From assembly GCA_016882305.1 (NCBI GenBank), contig VGQX01000012.1, positions 1-37,216 on the forward strand: a stretch of 37,216 nt of DNA, in the 5' to 3' direction. This DNA comes from Cyanobacteria bacterium K_Offshore_surface_m2_239. GTDB lineage: Bacteria; Cyanobacteriota; Cyanobacteriia; PCC-6307; Cyanobiaceae. Position 1 is the stretch's first letter. Every line of letters begins with the position of its first letter. Of the stretch, positions 1 through 21,636 are shown piece by piece. Below the pieces are notes generated by a model. The model did no database searches. It was given only the letters and a program-made list of their open reading frames with translations, and was not told the DNA's origin. The position numbers were made by a program, and so were the translations under genes.

Positions 1-843
1 ATCCGGGCTCCAGCCCACGCTCCTCACCCAATCCTTGTGGCCTTCGAGCAGGGCCAGCTGCTTGCCGCTTGCCGCCTCCCACAGCCGCACCGTGCCATCA
101 CCCCCGCCGCTGGCCAGGCGCTGCCCATCCGGGCTCCAGCCCACGCTGTTCACCTGGCCGGGGTGGAAGAGATCAAGACTGTGGGGAAGCTGGGGCGCTC
201 CGAGGTGATCCAGGGAGGGTGGGGCGCGATCCACAGCGGAGGGGCTGGGGCTGGCGGGAGAGGAGGGCGGCTTCGCCGTTGGAGGCGGCGGAAGGCTGGA
301 GGTTGCATCGGTGCTCTCCGCGGCTCGGGTGGACTCCGTTGCCGTGGAATCTGTCGCCGCCGTTTCCGCCTTCGTGCCTTCAGCCGGCTCGCCGACCTCT
401 CCGCCGATCCCCTCCCCAGCGTTCTCCACTCGGCAGGCCTCCAACAGCCGAGCCCACTCGCGCTCGCGATCCGCGCCTGGCCGCCAATCCACCTCGGCGA
501 AAATGCGCAGCATCGCCTTGGGCTCGGCGTCGTCGAGACGCAGCGGAATAAAGCGCCTTTCCAGGTTTTGCGGATCGCGAAAGATGGCGGCGTGGCGCTC
601 CAGCCCCGCCCACTCCGAGCCGAAAGCGTTGGCCGACATGCAAAACAGCAGCACCTTCGAGTGCTCCAGCCCCTCCTCGATCTTCACGGAGATCGGATCG
701 CCCGGCTTGATGATCCACTCGTCGAACCACACCCGCAGCCCAGTCGCCCGCAGCCCCTCGGCCAGCTCACGCACCACCGTCTTGTCGGCGCTGCTGTGGC
801 TGAGGAAAACGTTGTAGCGGTAGGTGGTGTGGGGCCCGGCCAT
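1..843 (-). CDS. TIR domain - low-complexity linker - WD40 repeat protein (3' end beyond window edge)
   Basis: Reverse-strand frame open from ATG at 843 to the window edge; absent from the ORF track because it has no stop in the window. Reads MAGPHTTYRYNVFLSHSSADKTVVRELAEGLRATGLRVWFDEWIIKPGDPISVKIEEGLEHSKVLLFCMSANAFGSEW... (TIR: VFLSHSSADK, WFDEW), then a Pro/Ser/Ala/Thr-rich linker, then VNSVGWSPDGQRLASGGGDGTVRLWEAASGKQLALLEGHKDWVRSVGWSPD (WD40). Confidence 0.93.
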   Translation of the reverse strand, partial: MAGPHTTYRYNVFLSHSSADKTVVRELAEGLRATGLRVWFDEWIIKPGDPISVKIEEGLEHSKVLLFCMSANAFGSEWAGLERHAAIFRDPQNLERRFIPLRLDDAEPKAMLRIFAEVDWRPGADREREWARLLEACRVENAGEGIGGEVGEPAEGTKAETAATDSTATESTRAAESTDATSSLPPPPTAKPPSSPASPSPSAVDRAPPSLDHLGAPQLPHSLDLFHPGQVNSVGWSPDGQRLASGGGDGTVRLWEAASGKQLALLEGHKDWVRSVGWSPD

Positions 844-942
844 GGGGGCAGGGTAGGGGGTGAACTGTGCCGGGCATGGGGTGGCCGGGCACAATGGGCT
901 CTGGTGAAGGGGGTTCGCTGCCCTGGCTGGCTGAATGGAGCG

Positions 943-2169
943 ATGAGCCACTACTCCGACGCTGAACTGGAAGCCCTGCTTGCGGATACGGAATCCGACC
1001 AGGTGGAGCGCAAAAGGGCCTGGACCGGTAATGCCCCCAGCAAGGGCCGCGAGGCTGTCTGCGCGTTTGCCAATGATCTGCCCGACCACGGCACACCAGG
1101 GGTGTTGATTGTTGGCGCGAACGATGACGGTAGCCCCTCCCACACGCCCATCGATGATCAACTCTTGCAGACCCTGTCTGATATCAAGACCGATGGGAAA
1201 ATCGTGCCGCCGCCTACCCTCACGGTTCAAAAACGCCTGTTGAAGGGTGCCGATCGGGCGGTGGTGACCGTCTGGCCGGCGGATTCGCCCCCCGTTCGCT
1301 ACGACGGCCGCATCTGGATTCGCCTGGGCCCTCGACGGGATCTGGCCACCGCCCAGGATGAGCGCATTCTCAATGAAAAGCGACGCTGCCGCGATCAACC
1401 CTTTGATGCCCGGCCCTGTGGTAGCGCCACCTGGAAGGATTTGGATCTGGCCTGGTATCGGGAGACCTATCTGCCGATGGCCGTGGCGCCGGAGGTGTTG
1501 GAGGCCAATGAGCGCTCCTTGGAGGAGCAGTTGGCCAGCACCCGCATGATCCTCAGCCCCGCCGAACCCACGCCCACCCACTTGGGCGTACTCACCCTGT
1601 GTGACCATGGACGCGACTTCCTCCCCTGCGCTTACGTGCAGTTTTTGAAGCTGGCCGGCACCAGCCTGGCGGATGAACCGGTGGATGCGGAGGAGTTTGA
1701 GGGGCGCCTGGTGGATGTCATCCGCCTGGTGGAAGAGAAGTTGATGTCACACAACCGCACAACGGTGGATTTCAAGAGCGGGGCCAACGAGAGGCGCACT
1801 CAGCTCTACCCGCTGGTGGCGCTGCAGCAATTGTTTCGCAATGCCATGCTGTACCGCACCTATGAGCACACCCAGGCGCCGATTCGCGTCTACTGGTATG
1901 CGGATCGTCTTGAGATCTTCAGCCCCGGCGGGCCCGTGGGCATCGTGACGGCCGAAACCTTTGGCCTGCCAGGCTATACCGACTATCGCAACCCCAACCT
2001 GGCGGGTTTTCTGCGGGAGACGGGTTTCGCGCAACGGTTTGGGGCTGGTATCGCCAGCGCACGGCGTGAATGTTCCCGTAATGGCAATCCCTTACCTGAA
2101 TTCAAGATCTCCAATCTCGCTATCGCGGTGACGTTGCGGCCCGCAGAGGAGATGATAGAGGAGCCATGA
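943..2169 (+). CDS. AlbA_2 (Schlafen-like) DNA-binding domain / GHKL-type ATP-binding protein
   Basis: Within ORF 37..2169; real start likely ATG at 943 (MSHYSDAELEALLADTESDQVERKRAWTG...). The ESDQVERK...VCAFANDLP...GVLIVGANDDG pattern fits AlbA_2; C-terminal LVALQQLFRNAMLYRTYE...DRLEIFSPGGP...GAGI fits HATPase_c_4-type domains. Confidence 0.85.
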   Translation: MSHYSDAELEALLADTESDQVERKRAWTGNAPSKGREAVCAFANDLPDHGTPGVLIVGANDDGSPSHTPIDDQLLQTLSDIKTDGKIVPPPTLTVQKRLLKGADRAVVTVWPADSPPVRYDGRIWIRLGPRRDLATAQDERILNEKRRCRDQPFDARPCGSATWKDLDLAWYRETYLPMAVAPEVLEANERSLEEQLASTRMILSPAEPTPTHLGVLTLCDHGRDFLPCAYVQFLKLAGTSLADEPVDAEEFEGRLVDVIRLVEEKLMSHNRTTVDFKSGANERRTQLYPLVALQQLFRNAMLYRTYEHTQAPIRVYWYADRLEIFSPGGPVGIVTAETFGLPGYTDYRNPNLAGFLRETGFAQRFGAGIASARRECSRNGNPLPEFKISNLAIAVTLRPAEEMIEEP

Positions 2170-3167
2170 AAACCATCGCATTTTTCAACGATCGCGCTGG
2201 TGTTGGCAAGACCACGCTTGTGTATCACCTTGCCTGGATGTTGGCGGAATTGGGCCTCTCCGTGCTGGCCGCCGATCTGGATCCCCAGGCCAATCTCAGC
2301 AGCCTGTTCCTCGATGAAGACCTCCTGGAGGAGATCTGGACAGAGCCCCGTACCCCAAGAACCGTGCTCGGCAGCCTGCTGCCTTTGCTGGAGGGAACGG
2401 GCGAGGTGGCCACTCCCTGGATCGCTCAGGTTGCCTCTGGGATCGGGCTTGTTGTCGGCGATCTGGCCCTTTCGGCGCGGGTGGAGGATGGGTTGTCGGC
2501 GTGTTGGCTCAACGGCCTGGAGCGCGAGCCGAATGCTTTGCGTGTTTTCACAGCGTTTTGGCGCTTGTTGGCCCTGGCTGCCGCTGAACGCCAGGCTGAT
2601 GTGGTGTTGCTTGATGTGGCGTCCAACCTGGGAGCGTTGAATCGGGCGGTCTTGAGCTCAGCGAGCCAGGTGGTGATTCCGCTGGTGCCGGATCTGTATT
2701 CCATCCAAGGGTTGACCCATCTCGGCGCCACCCTGCGCGGCTGGCAGGAGAGCTGGCGGGAGCGCTTGGCGTCGACACCCGAGTCATCCCGCACCGCGCC
2801 GGTTCCAGGCGGCGCGATGGAGCCAGTGGGCTATGTGATGTTGCAACACCCGGTGCGCCTGGATCGACCGGTGATGGCCTACAAGCGCTGGCTGGATCAG
2901 GTGCCCGCCATCTATGCCCGTGCCGTCTTGAACCAGGCACCGGAGCCGCCTGCCGCAACCCCGAACGATGACCCCAACTGCCTCGCCCAGCTCAGGTACA
3001 ACCGGATCCTGATGCCCCTGGCCCGGGAGGCACGCAAGCCGATGTTTCATCTGACGCCAGCGGATGGGGCCCTGGGGGGCCATCTCCAGGCCGCCGTGGC
3101 TTGCCGGAAGGAGTTTCGTGCCTTGGCCAGGGAGCTCGCGGGGCGGTGTGGGTTGCTCTTGCCCTGA
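2166..3167 (+). CDS. ParA/MinD-like P-loop ATPase
   Basis: MKTIAFFNDRAGVGKTTLVYHLAWMLAELGLSVLAADLDPQANLSSLFLDED: ParA-type Walker A region and DLDPQAN; later VVLLDVASNLGALNRA. ATGA overlap with the upstream gene. Confidence 0.88.
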   Translation: MKTIAFFNDRAGVGKTTLVYHLAWMLAELGLSVLAADLDPQANLSSLFLDEDLLEEIWTEPRTPRTVLGSLLPLLEGTGEVATPWIAQVASGIGLVVGDLALSARVEDGLSACWLNGLEREPNALRVFTAFWRLLALAAAERQADVVLLDVASNLGALNRAVLSSASQVVIPLVPDLYSIQGLTHLGATLRGWQESWRERLASTPESSRTAPVPGGAMEPVGYVMLQHPVRLDRPVMAYKRWLDQVPAIYARAVLNQAPEPPAATPNDDPNCLAQLRYNRILMPLAREARKPMFHLTPADGALGGHLQAAVACRKEFRALARELAGRCGLLLP

Positions 3168-6222: not shown

Positions 6223-6476
6223 GCCTGAGCTCTAACTCTGCTGCCGATGGGGACCATTTTCGTGACGCCACGAAAATGGTGATCCGGGACGAAGCCTGTT
6301 GTCTTGCACGACTCGATCGCACGCTGGATCGCGGTGATGAAATTCTCCCAACGGGCATAGCCCAAGGGTTCCTGAAGGACACGGGCAAACCAGAACTCCA
6401 CTTCATCAGCACCTGGCTCTTTGCGAGCAAGAGCATCGAACTGTCTCTGCATCCTTTGGAGAAGATCTTTGATCAC
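6219..6476 (-). CDS. Short DinD/BRO-N-like protein (possible N-terminal remnant of DinD)
   Basis: 85 aa; FWFARVLQEPLGYARWENFITAIQRAIESCKTTGFVPDHHFRGVTKMVPIGS resembles the N-terminal part of DNA-damage-inducible protein D. Overlaps the mod stop (ATGA) and the res start (ATGA). Confidence 0.6.
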   Translation of the reverse strand: MIKDLLQRMQRQFDALARKEPGADEVEFWFARVLQEPLGYARWENFITAIQRAIESCKTTGFVPDHHFRGVTKMVPIGSRVRAQA

Positions 6477-8403
6477 AGGCTTCTCACGGTTTCGAGCCCG
6501 TGCTGCTGGAGGATGGCGGTGATGTTGGTCTTGGCCACGTCATCAGCGAAGGCACTGTCACGGAAGACAACTGTAGTTTCTCCGGCAGGCTTCAACTCCT
6601 GATGCCTTGCCACGATGGCGAGAGCAAGAGGCTCTACATCCACCTGCGGGACGGATTGGGAGAGGCATACAAGCAGGGAGCCGCCACCGATGGAGTGGAG
6701 GTCGTGTGCTTGCGTGGCACCGAGTGCCTTTTTTCGAGTTTCAATCGGGACACAGAGATCAAGTCCCAACTTGAGCAGGAGCTCAAAGAGGATGTCTTGC
6801 TCGGTACGGTCGGTCTTGAGATGCTCGATGGAGGCTTCGAGGGTTTCGGCGATCTTGTCGCTGTCTGGGTCCCATTCGCGGATGTTCGTGGAGTCTAGTT
6901 TGAAGACGCGAAAGCCGATGTCACCAGTAAACATAGGATTTGAGTTGGTTATTCGCCTTCCTGCTGCTCGAATACGCGTAAGAGTTACGTCAGCTATTGA
7001 TTTCCATCCTACTGAATCTGCACCCTGAATGGGTTCTTGAAGCTGGATCAAGATGCAACGCCTCTTCCCGCCATCCTCAGCATTCTGGGCTAAAACTGCA
7101 TCCATAGTCGTCCCTGTTCCGGCAAAGAAATCCATGACCAAGTCTTCACTGGCTAGGCTTGTTGACAGTTGCAGTATTCGTCGGATCAGGCGCGTAGGCT
7201 TTGGCGTTTCGAATACGACGTCCGAATTCGGAAAGTCGACAGCCGCAATCAACTCCTTCTTGGCTTCTTGTGTATGACCGACCTCTTGATAGGACCAGAG
7301 GGTTTGTGGTACACGCCCGTCTTTTACTTCGCTTAGGAAACGCTTGATGGCTGGCACATTATTTCCATCTGCACCCCACCAAATTCTATCATCAGCATTC
7401 AACTCTTTAAACTTGGTCTGCGACACACGCCAATAAGTGCCAGGCGGAGGGCCGGAGAGTTGGCGCCCAGAAGGACAAATGATCTGATAAGTGCCTTCTC
7501 CATAATAGTTTCTCGCTGACAGATCACCTGGTTTCCAAGGCCCTCGTGGGTCATTATCTGGATTCCCATAGCGAGCCTCCATTTCCTCTGTTCGCGGAAG
7601 TAACTTTGGAATCCATGTCTCGGAATTCTTGGCATACACGATGATATAGTCATGATCTTCAGAGAAGTGCTTCGCAGAATTCTTGGGCGAATACACTTTC
7701 TGCCAAACCGCAGTAGCAATGAAGTTCTCTTCACCGAACAGCCGTTCATTACGCAGCGTAGATTATGAACCTCATGGTCTGCAATGCTAATGAAGACTAC
7801 ACCATCATCTCGAAGCAAATTGTGCGCGAGCTTAAGCCGCGGATACATCATATTGAGCCAATCCGTATGGAAGCGTCCGGAGGCCTCGGTATTGGAAGAG
7901 AGCTTCACGCCTCCCTCACCAGTCTGGCCAGTAAGCTCCAGGTAGTTCTTGATGTTATCTTGAAAGTTATCGGGATAAACGAAGTCTCTGCCGGTGTTGT
8001 AGGGAGGATCGATGTAAATGAGCTTCACCTTCCCCGCATAGCTCTTCTGCAACAGCTTGAGCACTTCCAGGTTGTCACCCTCGATCATCAGATTCTTGGT
8101 GGTATCCCAATCCACGCTCTCTTCCGGGCAGGGCCGCAAGGTTCCCGTGGAGGGGGTGAGGGCCAGCTGGCGGGCGCGGCGTTTGCCATGCCAGTTGAGG
8201 CCGTACTTCTCCTCCGCATCAGTGACGGTCTTGTCACCAACGAGCGACTTGAGCACGTCGACATTCACGGCCACGCCATCCGGTCCCTCGGTGATCAGTT
8301 CAGGGAAAAGCGCCCGTAGCGCAGCCAGATTTTCCGCCACCAGGTCGGGCGAATGGGTCTCAGGGTCGGCGGCGGTCAGTTTCTGCATGGTGGCGTTGTG
8401 CAT
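6473..8403 (-). pseudogene. mod: Type III DNA methyltransferase Mod, interrupted by a frameshift near 7742
   Basis: ORF 7399..8541 gives the N-terminal half (MHNATMQKLTAADPETH...KLIYIDPPYNTGRDFVY...HTDWLNMMYPRLKLAHNLLRDDGVVFISIADHEVHNLRCVMN). The sequence continues in another frame as LFGEENFIATAVWQKVYSPKNSAKHFSEDHDYIIVYAKN...DLVMDFFAGTGTTMDAVL (ORF 6473..7696 and upstream). Start ATG overlaps the upstream TGA (TGATG). Confidence 0.9.
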
Positions 8404-9161
8404 CACAGCCTGGCCTGGGCAGCAGCCTGGGCCGCTTCCAAGCGCTTGAGTTCGAGGTTCAGGTCCACACGCCGCGCCATCTGCTTCTCCTTGGCGGCAG
8501 TGGCTCGCACGCGGGCGATCTCCCTGGACAGGCGCGTGCATTCTTGCAGGGCCTGGCGCCGAAGCCCAGCCTGCTCAGGGTTGGTGGCCATGGCAAAGGC
8601 CCCGGTCAGGCGAGCCGCCTGCAGCGCCAGCAGTGTATCGATCCAGCCTTGATACAACGCCTCCAGGGTGGTGCGTGGCTGCTGGCCAAGCCTCAGCGCC
8701 TCACCGAAAGCAGGCCAGCGTTCAGCGTCCTGCTCCACGTCCCACGCCACGGTCACCACATCGCCCTCCAGCACCGTTTTTCCCGCCTCGGCTTGCGACC
8801 AACGCTTCTGTGCCAGCGAGAGGGATGCGTTGCCGCCCTGCTCAGTGATCAACAGCACCGGATAGGGGACCGCCCGGTGCACCAGCTCGATCAGCCGACC
8901 CCCTTTGGCGGCGGCGCGCAGCGTGAGATGAAGCACGGCAATCTCAAGCACCTCCCGCAGCTCGTCGCGATACTCCGCCACGCCAATCGTGGTGGGCTTG
9001 AGCGCTGCCACCCAGACGAGGTGCTCGATTCCCTCATTGATTTGCCGCTTGTCGGCGGCTGTGGGGGCCCCGTGCTCGTGCAGCAACGTTTTCGGCACGC
9101 GCTTATCGACCCTGGCAGACGCGGGCAGATCAAGGGCAGCCAGGAGCAGCGCTGCCTTCAT
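8403..9161 (-). CDS. DUF4391-like protein of the type III RM locus
   Basis: 252 aa; start MKAALLLAALDLPASARVDKRVPKTLLHEHGAPTAADKRQINEGIEHLVWVAALKPTTIGVAEYRDELREV; position between helicase and mod; overlapping start/stop codons on both sides. Confidence 0.8.
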   Translation of the reverse strand: MKAALLLAALDLPASARVDKRVPKTLLHEHGAPTAADKRQINEGIEHLVWVAALKPTTIGVAEYRDELREVLEIAVLHLTLRAAAKGGRLIELVHRAVPYPVLLITEQGGNASLSLAQKRWSQAEAGKTVLEGDVVTVAWDVEQDAERWPAFGEALRLGQQPRTTLEALYQGWIDTLLALQAARLTGAFAMATNPEQAGLRRQALQECTRLSREIARVRATAAKEKQMARRVDLNLELKRLEAAQAAAQARL

Positions 9162-12100
9162 GCGGGCTGCTCCGCAAGCACCACCAGGAAGGCCACCACT
9201 TCGAAATCATTGATCCCGGCGAATTCACCAGCCAAGGCATGGGTGCCGCCAGGGCTGAACAGGCTGGCCACGGCTCGCTCCTCGCTTTTGCCCACCACAG
9301 AGGCAACGGCCGCAGCCAACAGCCGCTGGGCCTGACGCATGTCTTCTCCAGCCTTCGTGGAACGATCAAAGCGTGCACAGGCTCCGGCATCGGGTGTGTC
9401 ACGTCCGATGCAGAGCCGTTTCAGCCGATCCAGGATCTGCTTGGCCTGGGTGAAGGGAAGCAACACAGCTCCGTCTTCTCCCACATGGATCAGGTAATGC
9501 GGGGCCAGTGGATAGGCACGATCGCTGATCTTCTCAGCGACTCCTGCCTCTGCTCGCAGGCAGAAAATCATGCCCGCTGGAAGGTCGAGATCACGGCTGG
9601 TGGTGACGGCGAAGGTGCCCAGTGCCAAGCTCTCCAGCAGGCCGGGATTGGCCTTGGTGAATTGGGCCAGATCAATGCGACAATCCGTAAGCGTGAGGTC
9701 TGCGATCGAAACACCTGTCGACAGATCCTCCAGATCGATCACGGCCTCCTGGAGCTTGAGCAGCTGGTTGCACCGGTACTCCAGGTCATTCATCGGATTG
9801 CCAGACTGCTGTTCAATCAGGTTCTCCTCACCTGTTGCCGAGATATCGAGCAGCACCATCCGGCCGCTGACACGCTGCTCCAAGTTGATGTACTCCTCCA
9901 GTTCCATGTTGGGCCAGAAGTTGGCGAGCTGGATGCAGGCATTGGGGGATCCAAGCCTGTCGATGCGACCAAAGCGCTGAATGATCCGCACTGGGTTCCA
10001 ATGAATGTCGTAGTTGATCAGCCAATCGCAGTCCTGCAGGTTCTGGCCCTCGGAGATGCAGTCCGTCGCAATCAGAAGATCAAGCTCACCCTCGTCCGCC
10101 AGGTCTTCGGGCCGCTCCTTGGCGCGAGGCGCGAACGACGTCAGGATTGCGGTCAGATCACGTCTTTGTTTTGGCAGGGTGGTGAGGTTGCTGCCTGTGC
10201 CCGTCACGAGTGCAGAGTCTAGCTGCAACTCCGTCTTTGCCCAGCCGGCCAGCTGGTCGTAGAGATAGCGGGCCGTATCGGCGAACGCTGTGAAAATGAT
10301 CAGCTTGCGGTTCTCAGGATTGATGGGTGCTCGGATCTTCTTGCGGATCATCTCTTTCAGTTCTTTCAGCTTTGCATCACGGGATGGCACCACGACCCGG
10401 GCGGCAGCGAGAAGGGTGGCCAAGCGGTTGCGGTCTTCCACGAGGTCTTGCTTCCAGCGAATCAGGTCAACGTCTTGAAGCAGCACCTTGATCTTTCGGC
10501 CAACCAGCAAACTCTCGAAAGCAGGATCCTCAAAATCCACATCGCTAATGTCGATTTCTTCCACTTCAAACGACTGATCTTCGATGCGCTCCAAAGTGGC
10601 ATCCACATCCTTGAGCTGACGTTCCACCGTCAACGCGAAGGAAGCGACGGAACTTTCCATTCGCTTGAGCACATTCACTCGGATCAGATGGATCAGACTC
10701 TCCTCCCGGTCCACTTGGCGGAAGAAGCCCAAGCCACCCTTCACTTCGATGCTGTACTTTCTGTCGTAGGCCTCTTGCTTGTGGGGCAGCACATAACGCA
10801 ACGGCGCGTAGGAGGCCAGGTTGAGTCTGCGGATCTCCAGGTTTACGGTGCTGATCGCTGGAAAGGTTCCACTCAGATCCACATCCGCCTTGATGTTGAT
10901 GGGTTTCAACCGCTCAGGAAACTTGCCGGTCTCGGCGATTCCGTAATACTTTTCCACGTGCTTGCGTGAACGGGCAATGGTGAGCGTGTCCAGTAGGGTG
11001 AAATAGTCGAACCCCAGCATCTCCATCAGGAGCTGCGGTGTGCGGCTGACTTCCTCAAGATCCAGCCAGCGGTTGAATTGTTTTTGCGCCAGACGGGTGG
11101 TCATGTCGATGCTGCTGATCCCTTGAGCCAGCAGGGCAGCGTCGTTGGCCTCGGTGGCAAAGGCGATCTGATTGCGCAGGTCCGCCATGCGGTTGTTGAC
11201 CGGCGTTGCGGAAAGCATCAGCACCCGCGTCCTGACGCCTTCCTTGATGATTTTGCGCATCAGGCGGTCGTAGCGGGTTTCAACACCCATCTGGGGCGTT
11301 CGCTTGTTGCGGAAATTATGGGATTCATCAATCACGACAAGATCGTAATTGCCCCAGTTGATAAGGCCAAGGTCAATGTCACCTGACAGGCCTCCAGCAC
11401 GAGATAGATCCGTGTGGTTGAGCACGTCATAATTGAAACGATCGGTTGCCAGGATGTTGCGACGATCATTGGCTTTATAGATCGTCCAGTTATCGCGCAG
11501 CCGCTTGGGGCACAGTACGAGAATGCGGTCATTGCGTAACTCGTGGTACTTGATGATGGCCAACGCCTCAAATGTCTTCCCGAGCCCCACGCTGTCGGCA
11601 ATGATGCAGCCACCAAACCGATTCAGCTTGTCGACGGCGCCAACAACACCATCCCGTTGAAACTTGTAGAGCTTCTGCCAGACAACCGTATTGCGGATTC
11701 CCGTAGCGGCATTGACAATCTGATCCTCATCCAGTTGGTCCTCACGGCTGCTAAAGAGGCTGTGAAGAATGAGGATGTAGATGAGATAGGGGTCGCGATA
11801 GCTTGCGATCTGATGGAGCGAATCGAGCAATGAGCTCTTGGCCTGCGGATCTTCTCTAAGGCCGTTCCATTGCGACTGAAACCATTCATCGATCAGCTTG
11901 GCCTCCTCAGGCCCTTCCGATGCCTGAATCAGGCTGAGGGGATTGCCGGCTGTGATCCCCAGCCCATCGCTGCTGAAGGCGAGCGATCCGAGCAAGGCCT
12001 GAACAGGCCGATGCCCCTCCCCACGGATGACCATGGCACCTTGAGGCACGGCCGTCGACGCCCGCCGCAAATCCACCTTGCTTGAGAGCCATTGGGCAAG

Positions 12101-12355
12101 CTGACCTGCCAGCCAGTGCGCTTGGAGGCGGTTGCGGGCGGGACGGTCTGCCGCGGAACCCAGCAGCTGCAGATCCGCTCCCGCCGGTGGCAGAACCAGC
12201 TGACACCGCTCAACCGCCAACAGCCCCCGGCGCAGTTCAGCGAAGGCAAACATTGACAGGGCGGCACTCACCACGCGCACGTCCTGGCCCGAGCGCAGCA
12301 GGGGGCGAACCAGGTCGATGACCCGGTCATTACCGGTGTTGCGGACCAGCCTCAT
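9158..12355 (-). CDS. SNF2-family helicase with N-terminal PLD-like domain
   Basis: 1065 aa; GGCIIADSVGLGKTFEALAIIKYHELRNDRILVLCPKRLRDNW, VVIDESHNFRNK, LMLSATPVNN, LIATDCISEGQNLQDCDWLINYDIHWNPVRIIQRFGRIDRLGS. N-terminus (DVRVVSAALSMFAFAELRRGL...ALLGSLAFSSDGLG) resembles PLD-like domains of helicase fusions. Confidence 0.92.
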   Translation of the reverse strand: MRLVRNTGNDRVIDLVRPLLRSGQDVRVVSAALSMFAFAELRRGLLAVERCQLVLPPAGADLQLLGSAADRPARNRLQAHWLAGQLAQWLSSKVDLRRASTAVPQGAMVIRGEGHRPVQALLGSLAFSSDGLGITAGNPLSLIQASEGPEEAKLIDEWFQSQWNGLREDPQAKSSLLDSLHQIASYRDPYLIYILILHSLFSSREDQLDEDQIVNAATGIRNTVVWQKLYKFQRDGVVGAVDKLNRFGGCIIADSVGLGKTFEALAIIKYHELRNDRILVLCPKRLRDNWTIYKANDRRNILATDRFNYDVLNHTDLSRAGGLSGDIDLGLINWGNYDLVVIDESHNFRNKRTPQMGVETRYDRLMRKIIKEGVRTRVLMLSATPVNNRMADLRNQIAFATEANDAALLAQGISSIDMTTRLAQKQFNRWLDLEEVSRTPQLLMEMLGFDYFTLLDTLTIARSRKHVEKYYGIAETGKFPERLKPINIKADVDLSGTFPAISTVNLEIRRLNLASYAPLRYVLPHKQEAYDRKYSIEVKGGLGFFRQVDREESLIHLIRVNVLKRMESSVASFALTVERQLKDVDATLERIEDQSFEVEEIDISDVDFEDPAFESLLVGRKIKVLLQDVDLIRWKQDLVEDRNRLATLLAAARVVVPSRDAKLKELKEMIRKKIRAPINPENRKLIIFTAFADTARYLYDQLAGWAKTELQLDSALVTGTGSNLTTLPKQRRDLTAILTSFAPRAKERPEDLADEGELDLLIATDCISEGQNLQDCDWLINYDIHWNPVRIIQRFGRIDRLGSPNACIQLANFWPNMELEEYINLEQRVSGRMVLLDISATGEENLIEQQSGNPMNDLEYRCNQLLKLQEAVIDLEDLSTGVSIADLTLTDCRIDLAQFTKANPGLLESLALGTFAVTTSRDLDLPAGMIFCLRAEAGVAEKISDRAYPLAPHYLIHVGEDGAVLLPFTQAKQILDRLKRLCIGRDTPDAGACARFDRSTKAGEDMRQAQRLLAAAVASVVGKSEERAVASLFSPGGTHALAGEFAGINDFEVVAFLVVLAEQPA

Positions 12356-13153: not shown

Positions 13154-13399
13154 ATGAACATCACGCTTTCCGCTGACGAAAAAATCATTGAGCGGGCCCG
13201 CAAGGCCGCGCAGGGCATGGGCAAGAGCCTCAATCAGGCGGTACGCGACTACCTTGAGCAACTCGCTGCCGGCGAAGAGGGCCTGGACGTCGAACTTGAA
13301 GCATTGCGCAGCCTGGCCGGGCAAGGCAACTCAGGTGGACAGCGCATCAGTTGTGATGAGCTGTATGCCGACCGCCTGGAGTTTCAGCGTGGCGCGTAG
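13154..13399 (+). CDS. VapB/RHH-type antitoxin
   Basis: MNITLSADEKIIERARKAAQGMGKSLNQAVRDYLEQLAAGEEGLDVELEALRSLAGQG; overlaps the downstream PIN gene. Confidence 0.8.
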   Translation: MNITLSADEKIIERARKAAQGMGKSLNQAVRDYLEQLAAGEEGLDVELEALRSLAGQGNSGGQRISCDELYADRLEFQRGA

Positions 13400-13799
13400 C
13401 TTCATCGACACCAACATCCTTGTCTACGCCGACGATGCTTTCGACCCGCGCAAGCAACAGCTCGCGCTCGATCTGGTGGTGGATCTGCGCTCCCGCCAGG
13501 AGGCCGTGCTATCGACGCAGGTGCTTCAGGAATACTTCGTCACCGCAACGCGCAAACTGGGTCTGGAGGCGCACGTTGCTCGCCAGCGCGTCACGCAATT
13601 TGGACGCTTCGAACTGATCCAGCCCACACTTGACATGTTGCTGGCGGCGATCGATCTGCAACAGAACCGCAGCCTCTCATTCTGGGATGCGCTGATCGTG
13701 CAGACAGCGAGCGCAGCCCGCTGCAGTGTGCTCTACAGTGAGGATATGCAGGCAGGGGCAAGGATTGGCAACGTTCTCATCGTCAATCCCTTCACGTGA
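13389..13799 (+). CDS. VapC-like PIN-domain toxin
   Basis: GTG start: VARSFIDTNILVYADDAFDPRKQQLALDLVVDLRSRQEAVLSTQVLQEYFVTATRKL...LSFWDALIVQTASAARCSVLYSEDMQAGARIGNVLIVNPFT; acidic PIN residues present (D in DTN, E in LQEY, D in FWDA, ED). Confidence 0.87.
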   Translation: MARSFIDTNILVYADDAFDPRKQQLALDLVVDLRSRQEAVLSTQVLQEYFVTATRKLGLEAHVARQRVTQFGRFELIQPTLDMLLAAIDLQQNRSLSFWDALIVQTASAARCSVLYSEDMQAGARIGNVLIVNPFT

Positions 13800-13976: not shown

Positions 13977-14278
13977 CAGCGCCTGATCAAACAGGCCCTC
14001 GCCACCGAGTGCGCTTGCATTAGTTTTCAAGTGGTCCAGGAGTGCCTCAACACCGTGCTTCGCAAAGCTGATGTCCTGCGGAATGTCGTCGATGCGCGAG
14101 CTTGGCTGGACACCGTTCTTGTGCCGCTGGTTCGTGTCGTCCCCACCCCCGCTCTCTCCCGGCGCGGCCTTGATGTGCAGGAGGGTTGGAAGCCGGCTGC
14201 AAACGGTGACTCAGCGATGACCTGCAACACGGCCAACGCATCGAAGGGCTGCGCGTCGAGAACCCTTTTGGTCTCTGA
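13977..14278 (+). pseudogene. Decayed PIN-domain toxin
   Basis: QRLIKQALATECACISFQVVQECLNTVLRKADVLRNVVDARAWLDTVLVPLVRVVPTPALSRRGLDVQEGWK (frame of ORF 14031..14618), then C-terminal SDDLQHGQRIEGLRVENPFGL* in a different frame; N-terminus not visible. Confidence 0.7.
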
Positions 14279-14357
14279 TCTGGCCGCCCCCGGCAACACC
14301 AATCAGCCTTCGATGCTCAAATCTCATAACATACTGACAAGGCACAAGGAAGGTTCC

Positions 14358-14618
14358 GTGACCCTGACCACAGTGACAGCTCGAGACTTTGCGCGCGACC
14401 TCGCCAGCGCGAAGAGGGCTGCCAATGCCGGGCCGGTCATCGTCACCGACCGGGGGCGGCCGGCCTACGCGCTGCTCAAGATTGAGGACGATTACAAACT
14501 GGACGGAATCCAGCGGCAGAGCCTGCTGGCTGTCATGGATGCGATTCCGGGCGGCGACGTCGTGTTTGAGCCTTCCAGCTTGGCAGGAAACGATTTCAAG
14601 CCGGCGGACTTGGACTGA
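14358..14618 (+). CDS. Phd-like antitoxin
   Basis: GTG start: VTLTTVTARDFARDLASAKRAANAGPVIVTDRGRPAYALLKIEDDYKLDG...DVVFEPSSLAGNDFKPADLD. Confidence 0.78.
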   Translation: MTLTTVTARDFARDLASAKRAANAGPVIVTDRGRPAYALLKIEDDYKLDGIQRQSLLAVMDAIPGGDVVFEPSSLAGNDFKPADLD

Positions 14619-18357: not shown

Positions 18358-18912
18358 TCAGAGTATCGGAGGAAATCTCGATGATCTTTCGTTCAGGCGC
18401 TGCAGCTGCGCCCTGGCCTTAAGCTTGGACAGACGCGTGGCTGAAGCGTCGAGGAGTCGCTGACGGCGCTCAGCCAGGACATCGGCGTGCCACTCTGGTG
18501 AGGCCAAGGAATACGGCTGGCTGCAGAGTCTCTGCCACTTGTCTGCTCCAGCAGCAGCCCCTTCTCCGGCACTGTCAGGGCGTCGCTTTGCTCTCCGGTG
18601 CGTGGCCAGTTCCGGTAAGTCCATCTGAACGATGGCCCAGATCACCTTCAGGCTGAGGCCGAAGTATTCGTGCACGATGCGATTCCTCAGCCCCTTGATG
18701 GCGCGCCAATCGATGTCGGGCCTGATGCGCTTCTTCTCCTCGGGGATTCCATTGGAGGCCTCGCCGATGATTTCGAGATTGCGGACCACGGCATCCACCG
18801 TACGAGTGTCTGCGCTGAACGCCTCAAAATCCATGCCGCTGGTGTAGGCAGCAATCTTGTCGCACGCCTCCTGCATGTCGGCGACAAACAGCCTCCAATC
18901 ACGGAGCGACAT
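18358..18912 (-). CDS. hepT: HepT-like HEPN toxin (DUF86) with atypical C-terminal extension
   Basis: MSLRDWRLFVADMQEACDKIAAYTSGMDFEAFSADTRTVDAVVRNLEIIGEASNGIPEEKKRIRPDIDWRAIKGLRNRIVHEYFGLSLKVIWAIVQMDLPEL; contains RX4HXY (RNRIVHEY). Confidence 0.85.
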   Translation of the reverse strand: MSLRDWRLFVADMQEACDKIAAYTSGMDFEAFSADTRTVDAVVRNLEIIGEASNGIPEEKKRIRPDIDWRAIKGLRNRIVHEYFGLSLKVIWAIVQMDLPELATHRRAKRRPDSAGEGAAAGADKWQRLCSQPYSLASPEWHADVLAERRQRLLDASATRLSKLKARAQLQRLNERSSRFPPIL

Positions 18913-19219
18913 GGAGCAGGCTGCTGAGAATGACGGTACGACGGTTCTCCTTGATCCCGTCAGCCGCCACCAGATCCACCTTGCGACCCAGCAGCTCTTC
19001 CAGTCGATCGGCCAGGTGGATGAAGCCGAAACCGATGGGTTCGGCGAAGCTCGCCAGCAGATCGACATCGCTGATGGCCGTGGCCTCATCCGTGGCAAAC
19101 GAGCCAAACAGCTGCAGGCTGCTGAGCTTGAACTCAGCGGCCAGGTCTGGGAAGTGCTCGCGCAGCACCCCAAGCACCTCGGCGCGGCTCGTGCAGGGGT
19201 GGGCGACGGAGCTCGTCAT
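18899..19219 (-). CDS. mntA: MntA-like minimal nucleotidyltransferase antitoxin
   Basis: LQLFGSFATDEATAISDVDLLASFAEPIGFGFIHLADRLEELLGRKVDLVAADGIKENRRTVILSSLLHVAP; exact GSX10DXD motif (GSFATDEATAISDVD). Overlaps hepT. Confidence 0.88.
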   Translation of the reverse strand: MTSSVAHPCTSRAEVLGVLREHFPDLAAEFKLSSLQLFGSFATDEATAISDVDLLASFAEPIGFGFIHLADRLEELLGRKVDLVAADGIKENRRTVILSSLLHVAP

Positions 19220-19319
19220 GGCAGCGGCAGGGCTGGACGCTGAATAGTAGCCGCACTGCAAGGGAGAGCCGAGCAGCAACCTCTGGCTGCACGACAAGCG
19301 CAAGCATGGTTACAGGGAA

Positions 19320-20959: not shown

Positions 20960-21274
20960 GTTCTCACCCCCCTGCCAGGGATTGAGCAGCTGCACTCCGG
21001 AGGCCTGGACATCCGCGAGGTTTCGGGTCACCACCACCAGGTTGTGCACCACGGCGGTGGCGGCGATCAAGCCATCACAGAACGGCTGGGGATGGGGCCC
21101 ATGCAAGGCGGCGCTCCACCAACAGCACGCCAAGCTCCAGCTCATGCAGCGTGATCCCCGAGACAAACAAGCTGCCAGCCTCAACCCGTTCCGCCCAGGC
21201 GGCGACACCCGGGTCGGCCTCGCCCGCCCGCACCTTGCGCAATTCCGAAACCAGGTTTGTGTCAAGCAGAACAT
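20960..21274 (-). pseudogene. FitB-like VapC toxin with internal deletion and frameshifts
   Basis: N-terminal HVLLDTNLVSELRKVRAGEADPGVAAWAERVEAGSLFVSGITLHELELGVLLVERR in one frame and C-terminal PQPFCDGLIAATAVVHNLVVVTRNLADVQASGVQLLNPWQGG in another; the central segment is absent. Confidence 0.8.
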
Positions 21275-21291
21275 GGGTCGATCCGCAACCC

Positions 21292-21504
21292 TCAGGCCAG
21301 GTCGGCGGCTTGGGGCGCCTCACCATGGCGGATCGAGGGCAACGCCACCGCATCAGCGCCTGGGGTGGCCAGCAGGTCGGCAATCGAACCGGCGCGGCCC
21401 AGCAGGCGGTCGGTGATGAACACAAGCCCCCGATTCGCAGCCCGCTTGGCTCCAGCCGCGTCTTGATCAAAGGCCCGGCTGGTGATGGTGACGGCCATGG
21501 GCAC
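21292..21504 (-). CDS. Phd-like antitoxin (probably internally deleted)
   Basis: MAVTITSRAFDQDAAGAKRAANRGLVFITDRLLGRAGSIADLLATPGADAVALPSIRHGEAPQAADLA; the usual RGRPxxVL... block after FITD is missing. Confidence 0.6.
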   Translation of the reverse strand: MPMAVTITSRAFDQDAAGAKRAANRGLVFITDRLLGRAGSIADLLATPGADAVALPSIRHGEAPQAADLA

Positions 21505-21636
21505 AAGTTTTGTTCAATTTAGTGTAGCAATGTTGCTACTTTTGGGGTGCGCCAACTTTTGGCCGAAGTCTAGACGTAATGCACCAGCTTGCGTCACACA
21601 CCAGCTTTGGGTGTGATGCGGTAATGCTGGATCAGC

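Follow-up and report, generated by a model that had tools for sequence, protein, structure and literature searches.

The first three genes of a contig from Cyanobacteria bacterium K_Offshore_surface_m2_239 raise the question of whether they form an undescribed defense system and, if so, which of the three belong to it. The stretch analyzed here (the window; 37,216 nucleotides) is the whole of contig C12, in a genome represented by 343 contigs. An earlier note on this DNA had described a TIR-WD40 gene diverging from a two-gene operon, and had proposed that the AlbA_2 and ParA-like products of the operon constitute a two-component ATPase module, with the TIR protein as either a part or a neighbor. 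Strands and coordinates of its three open reading frames were correct, and the features of the locus are as follows.

1..843, minus strand: gene with TIR_2 and WD40 domains (Pfam), truncated by the contig end; a neighbor outside the module.
943..2169, plus strand: predicted Schlafen-like effector gene, 408 aa, with AlbA_2 (residues 17-132) and GHKL HATPase_c_4 (312-398) domains (Pfam, AF2, Foldseek).
991..1008, plus strand: E17 and E22, acidic residues invariant in 78/78 sequences, with the spacing of SLFN13 E205/E210 (PMC5862951).
1123..1125, plus strand: D61, candidate third acidic residue equivalent to SLFN13 D248 (D in 68/78).
1828..1842, plus strand: GHKL N-box, Q296...N300; N is invariant and the catalytic-Glu position is Q in 44/78 and E in 34/78.
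2166..2169, plus strand: ATGA stop/start overlap of the Schlafen and ParA genes, the same in 72/77 pairs.
2166..3167, plus strand: extended ParA-like ATPase with a deviant Walker A, 333 aa, predicted switch or gate (Pfam, AF2, Foldseek, HMM).
2187..2216, plus strand: ParA Walker A, NDRAGVGKTT in the window and NNKGGVGKTS in the family (Lys10 to Arg; K in 92/95).

The minus-strand gene (TIR_2, E 2e-27, plus WD40 in Pfam) starts at 843 and runs past the end of both window and contig, and is therefore a fragment. It diverges from the AlbA_2 gene across a gap of 99 bp (844-942), a spacing that would suit a three-gene defense system joined through a shared promoter. Against such a system, no TIR homologue was found near the pair in 80 loci from GTDB or in 7 loci of the window's bacterial family, and in a sister species (G499) the TIR homologue and the pair reside on different contigs (C25 and C51, respectively). 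TIR-WD40 was thus rejected as a component, and a three-gene system is very improbable.

The plus-strand genes gave a different result. GTDB contigs were searched with the window ParA, and 80 loci with 48-58% identity were retained, spanning roughly 20 phylum-level groups as judged by their titles. An AlbA_2-GHKL homologue was located directly upstream on the same strand in 79 of the 80, and 72 of 77 intact pairs shared the exact 4-bp ATGA overlap, compared to 40 of 289 (14%) other adjacent same-strand gene pairs of the same loci. Recurrence at this frequency across many phyla places both the pairing and the overlap beyond chance. Furthermore, protein distances of the AlbA_2 and ParA families were correlated (Mantel r 0.57, a value reached in none of 2000 permutations). 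Results strongly support a real, tightly conserved two-gene module with two ATPase folds. No small gene was found to be conserved upstream of the pair. PADLOC returned partial Aga (pAgo) and P-loop matches for the two genes, with no single catalogued system covering both, and the literature searched likewise yielded no match, in agreement with the undescribed status suspected earlier.

Domain and structural data characterize the first protein as Schlafen-like. Pfam matches to SLFN_AlbA_2 (E 2e-11) and HATPase_c_4/GHKL (E 1e-16) were obtained, and the AF2 model (pLDDT 93.9) was most similar in Foldseek to 3LMM and 2KYY, followed by the N-domains of SLFN11/12/14 with probabilities of 0.93-1.00 and weak E values of ~1e-3. 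E17, E22, and D61 are separated by 5 and 39 residues, versus 5 and 38 in the triad of SLFN13 (E205/E210/D248; PMC5862951), so that the AlbA_2 domain appears to combine a Schlafen-type fold with an E-E-D triad, the latter assigned by spacing. N300 of the GHKL domain does not vary, and many sequences have Gln at the position normally occupied by the catalytic Glu. No C-terminal wHTH was detected; the protein ends 10 residues past the GHKL domain with no further Pfam match.

The second protein (AAA_31/ParA in Pfam, E 7e-22; AF2 pLDDT 92) matched 3PG5 best in Foldseek, followed by Soj and further ParAs, and belongs to the ParA-type ATPases but carries an extension. Two canonical plasmid ParAs scored 13-20 bits with the family HMM, distinguishing the family from the canonical ParA of ParABS systems, and no ParB gene was found beside the pair. 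3LMM (DIP2311) and 3PG5 (DIP2308), to which the two proteins are structurally most similar, are both from Corynebacterium diphtheriae and have close locus numbers; they are uncharacterized, and 3LMM is longer than the window Schlafen protein. The window copy of ParA is itself unusual. The signature Walker A lysine, replaced by Arg, is one change, GPN is altered to ASN, and about a dozen further otherwise invariant sites differ. With the signature lysine lost, the sequence suggests that this copy may be decaying or impaired. Both window genes had a pN/pS of 0.2-0.4 against family members, with synonymous sites near saturation, and contig C143 of the same genome contains a second, broken ParA piece.

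Distribution of AlbA_2-GHKL within the window's bacterial family is patchy, with a close homologue in 9 of 300 genomes (its own included; 67-77% identity where near full length). The window branch clusters with Planctomycetes, Acidobacteria, and others, apart from other cyanobacterial copies, implying horizontal transfer. Related copies in differing surroundings (L063/L065, L103/L109, L084/L109, and L011/L019) are homologous only across the two genes (~2.2 kb), with ~20 bp of flank on the upstream side and ~16 bp on the downstream side; the unit that moves is therefore a minimal cassette consisting of the pair. In one Chlorobiaceae genome (L333, L334), two copies 18 kb apart share 93.5% identity across 2,185 bp and have immediate flanks that are unrelated to each other; one of the two ParAs lacks the Walker A lysine (GGVGNT). 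No transposase or integrase is present within the two-gene unit. In L075 the terminal 96-bp piece of a helicase gene is found again after ParA (8687-8782 and 11050-11145), a long target duplication without a transposase. After removal of a tRNA artefact, flanking target duplications were present at 8 of 82 pairs and 13 of 1603 control windows (p 3e-6), of which clear gene-fragment duplications numbered only four (L034, L043, L075, L096; p 0.008). One of nine candidates, the direct repeat flanking L095, was rejected as two tRNA-Thr genes with different anticodons, and the L109 candidate sits within a region of dispersed repeats.

Tight gene overlap and mobility as a two-gene unit are also properties expected of a toxin-antitoxin system, in which a constitutive Schlafen toxin would be held in check by the ParA ATPase and the pair kept by addiction, not for defense. 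The same proposal was published in 2013 for a dyad of HEPN (MAE_18760 family) and ParA/Soj, predicted to be a toxin-antitoxin (Anantharaman et al. 2013; PMC3710099). Damaged copies of the pair speak mildly against ParA as an indispensable antitoxin: in L127 (G331) ParA is truncated but the Schlafen frame stays open, suggesting that ParA is not essential in this role, and the Walker A lysine is Ser in L128 and is also lost in one Chlorobiaceae copy, although these are draft assemblies in which sequencing error is possible. In L130-L132 it is the Schlafen genes that are broken or truncated. We consider the toxin-antitoxin explanation unlikely.

Distant relatives of the window ParA, which can be aligned with it almost end to end at about 25-33% identity, reside beside different effector genes. 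SIR2 adjoins extended ParA on plasmids of Salmonella, Vibrio ponticus, Spirosoma, Burkholderia stagnalis, Neorhizobium, and Photobacterium. HEPN is the neighbor in cyanobacteria, in phage Pf1, and on plasmids of Burkholderia glumae, and RelA/SpoT (RSH) is the neighbor in Caballeronia. A fourth partner class is cyclase-like by eye alone and has no Pfam match. Members beside SIR2, HEPN, RSH, and cyclase-like genes, together with solo members, scored 109-275 bits over the full length of the window-type ParA HMM, and the tree of extended ParAs is grouped largely by partner type. Across 119 distinct ParA loci on viral contigs, 61 had an adjacent downstream gene and 58 did not; SIR2 (20), RSH (17), HEPN (14), and cyclase-like genes (4) accounted for 55 of the 61. 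Gene order varies by partner, Schlafen preceding ParA and the other effectors following it, which indicates independent recruitment. Enzymes of the SIR2, HEPN, and RelA/SpoT types are well known as effectors or toxins of prokaryotic conflict systems, and on this basis ParA is read as a gate for exchangeable effectors.

Individual members of this wider group were also recorded. A RelA/SpoT-domain gene (L155, 6095-6766) is directly downstream of extended ParA on a Caballeronia plasmid, and 17 similar dyads occur in viral contigs. In phage Pf1 (AY324828.1; L159, 3525-4052) an unannotated HEPN gene overlaps the ParA-like 'putative regulatory protein' beside att2, so that this filamentous prophage carries a ParA-HEPN dyad. 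Salmonella phage ST160 (L160, 3501-4574) carries a partnerless extended ParA-like gene in the immunity region between c2 and gp24, and similar solo genes are found in E. coli, Pantoea, and one Helicobacter prophage. A DNA-level search for homologues of the SIR2-ParA dyad in E. coli returned none.

Genomic context was examined for a link to defense. The pair is adjacent to a type III restriction-modification operon in the window, as had been noted, with a Res gene and a Mod in two overlapping frames beside the locus. The Mod (6473-8541, minus strand) is split into frames 7399-8541 and 6473-7696, probably by a frameshift or assembly error. Also beside the type III genes (8403-12355, minus strand) are a DUF4391 gene and a Snf2-type helicase whose best PADLOC match is 'HKD+Snf2' C3a139. 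Farther along, a candidate PIN toxin (13188-13799), Phd-like antitoxin (14031-14618), HEPN/MNT pair (18358-19303), and VapC-like fragment (21075-21506) were recognized by eye. Several DUF1156/DUF499 (BREX-related) loci are present on other contigs of this genome (C33, C136, C149, C168, C183).

Across the 80 loci, BREX-related genes, namely DUF1156 methylase, DUF499 ATPase, and Swi2/Snf2 helicase (so named in PMC12839542), directly flank the pair in 8, compared to about 0.1 loci expected from a DUF1156 prevalence of 45/283 in Cyanobacteria. The frequent order is helicase, Schlafen, ParA, methylase, and in L048 these four are linked in a chain by 4-bp overlaps. No independent occurrence of BREX-related genes more than 5.5 kb from the pair was found in the 80 loci. 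On a viral contig (L137) the pair is situated inside a BREX operon, between a PglX-type methylase and PglZ, with BrxL following. Within the window's bacterial family the pair is found beside type I-E Cas3 (L130, L131), beside DUF1156/HNH/DUF499 (L126), and near TrlF-like and other genes (L127). Most of the remaining GTDB loci have ordinary or housekeeping neighbors, and PADLOC and Pfam tallies of near versus far neighbors revealed no clear excess of defense genes. BREX-related adjacency alone is therefore claimed, and not the general defense-island enrichment anticipated in the earlier note; the defense role it proposed remains plausible through exchangeable toxic ParA partners and BREX-related or BREX placement, but not through neighborhood at large.

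In Nitrosomonadales-type genomes the pair has a stable position, with gyrA on one side and serine-synthesis genes on the other, and starts 3-6 bp after gyrA in L045, L062, L077, L101, and L111, which represent two separate pair clades. This location looks like a settled chromosomal function and counts against a role in conflict. AlbA_2 was first annotated as a DNA-binding domain, and the pair could be a regulatory or DNA-maintenance module in which AlbA_2 binds nucleic acid without cutting and is positioned by ParA, consistent with the many loci in ordinary operons, the gyrA-linked site included. Such a module would not readily account for the invariant Schlafen-type acidic residues, the pairing of ParA relatives with SIR2, HEPN, and RSH genes, the broken copies and uneven occurrence within the window's bacterial family, or insertion into BREX-related operons, and we regard it as unlikely.

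A defense or toxin function is likely for the pair. The reading that we prefer, and consider somewhat probable, is a ParA-gated Schlafen RNase module used in conflict with phages or mobile elements. The first protein would be a Schlafen-type endoribonuclease (AlbA_2) with an ATP-binding GHKL domain, and the ParA-type ATPase would dimerize on ATP and gate this effector, acting as an activator rather than an antitoxin. The trigger would be a sign that a phage or plasmid is taking over, perhaps an altered state of DNA or nucleotides, or a neighboring restriction system that has failed. The ParA switch would then release or activate the nuclease, and cleavage of tRNA or other RNA would stop growth. 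The module may serve as a stand-alone or back-up abortive layer.

Comparison with known systems places this module near several of them. In the HEPN-ParA/Soj dyad a ParA/Soj-type ATPase gene likewise adjoins a predicted RNase gene. Window ParA and the ParA of HEPN_RiboL-PSP dyads are homologous along their full length (ParAs beside HEPN genes scored 124-169 bits over nearly the full length), and these dyads may correspond to the published MAE_18760 dyads. The Schlafen-ParA effector differs in being AlbA_2 plus GHKL and not HEPN with an Rx4-6H motif, and its gene comes first, usually with the exact ATGA overlap. Schlafen-histidine kinase-wHTH proteins, listed as back-up effectors of BREX and related (BR) systems (PMC12839542, 2026), share the order of AlbA_2 then GHKL ATPase domain, and part of the pair family shares their BREX-related placement. 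The Schlafen of the pair lacks a wHTH and has an obligate ParA partner, of which the main text of PMC12839542 makes no mention; furthermore, most copies of the pair lie outside BREX/BR, and no BREX/BR core genes were found beside the window copy on its contig. PARIS (AriA ABC-type ATPase and AriB TOPRIM tRNase; PMC12839542, PMC12409363) is similar in its proposed logic, an ATPase controlling a translation-stopping nuclease, sometimes inside BREX loci, but the ATPase and nuclease folds are unrelated and the likeness is one of analogy only.

Neither the Schlafen-ParA pair nor a wider ParA-effector class was found described in the literature searched, although overlap with a bacterial-Schlafen preprint is possible, and nothing was found on a ParA-SIR2 or ParA-RSH system; among extended ParA-effector dyads, only HEPN-ParA was found described. 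A ParA family with varied toxic partners suggests a little-studied class of switch-controlled defense or toxin systems. More tentatively, and at less than even confidence, the extended ParA subfamily might be a general gate of at least five effector chemistries (Schlafen, HEPN, SIR2, RelA/SpoT, and cyclase-like), defining a class of phage-, plasmid-, and chromosome-borne defense systems in which the Schlafen branch is a transposase-less cassette of ~2.2 kb.

That so compact a unit moves with no evident transposase is puzzling in itself. If the ParA switch truly controls interchangeable toxic enzymes, an ATPase family known for 'plasmid partition' would be an infection sensor in many phages, plasmids, and bacteria. 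Genes annotated as 'ParA family protein' in prophages (e.g. Pf1 and P22-like phages) would then become testable defense candidates, and bacterial Schlafens would gain a dedicated regulator.
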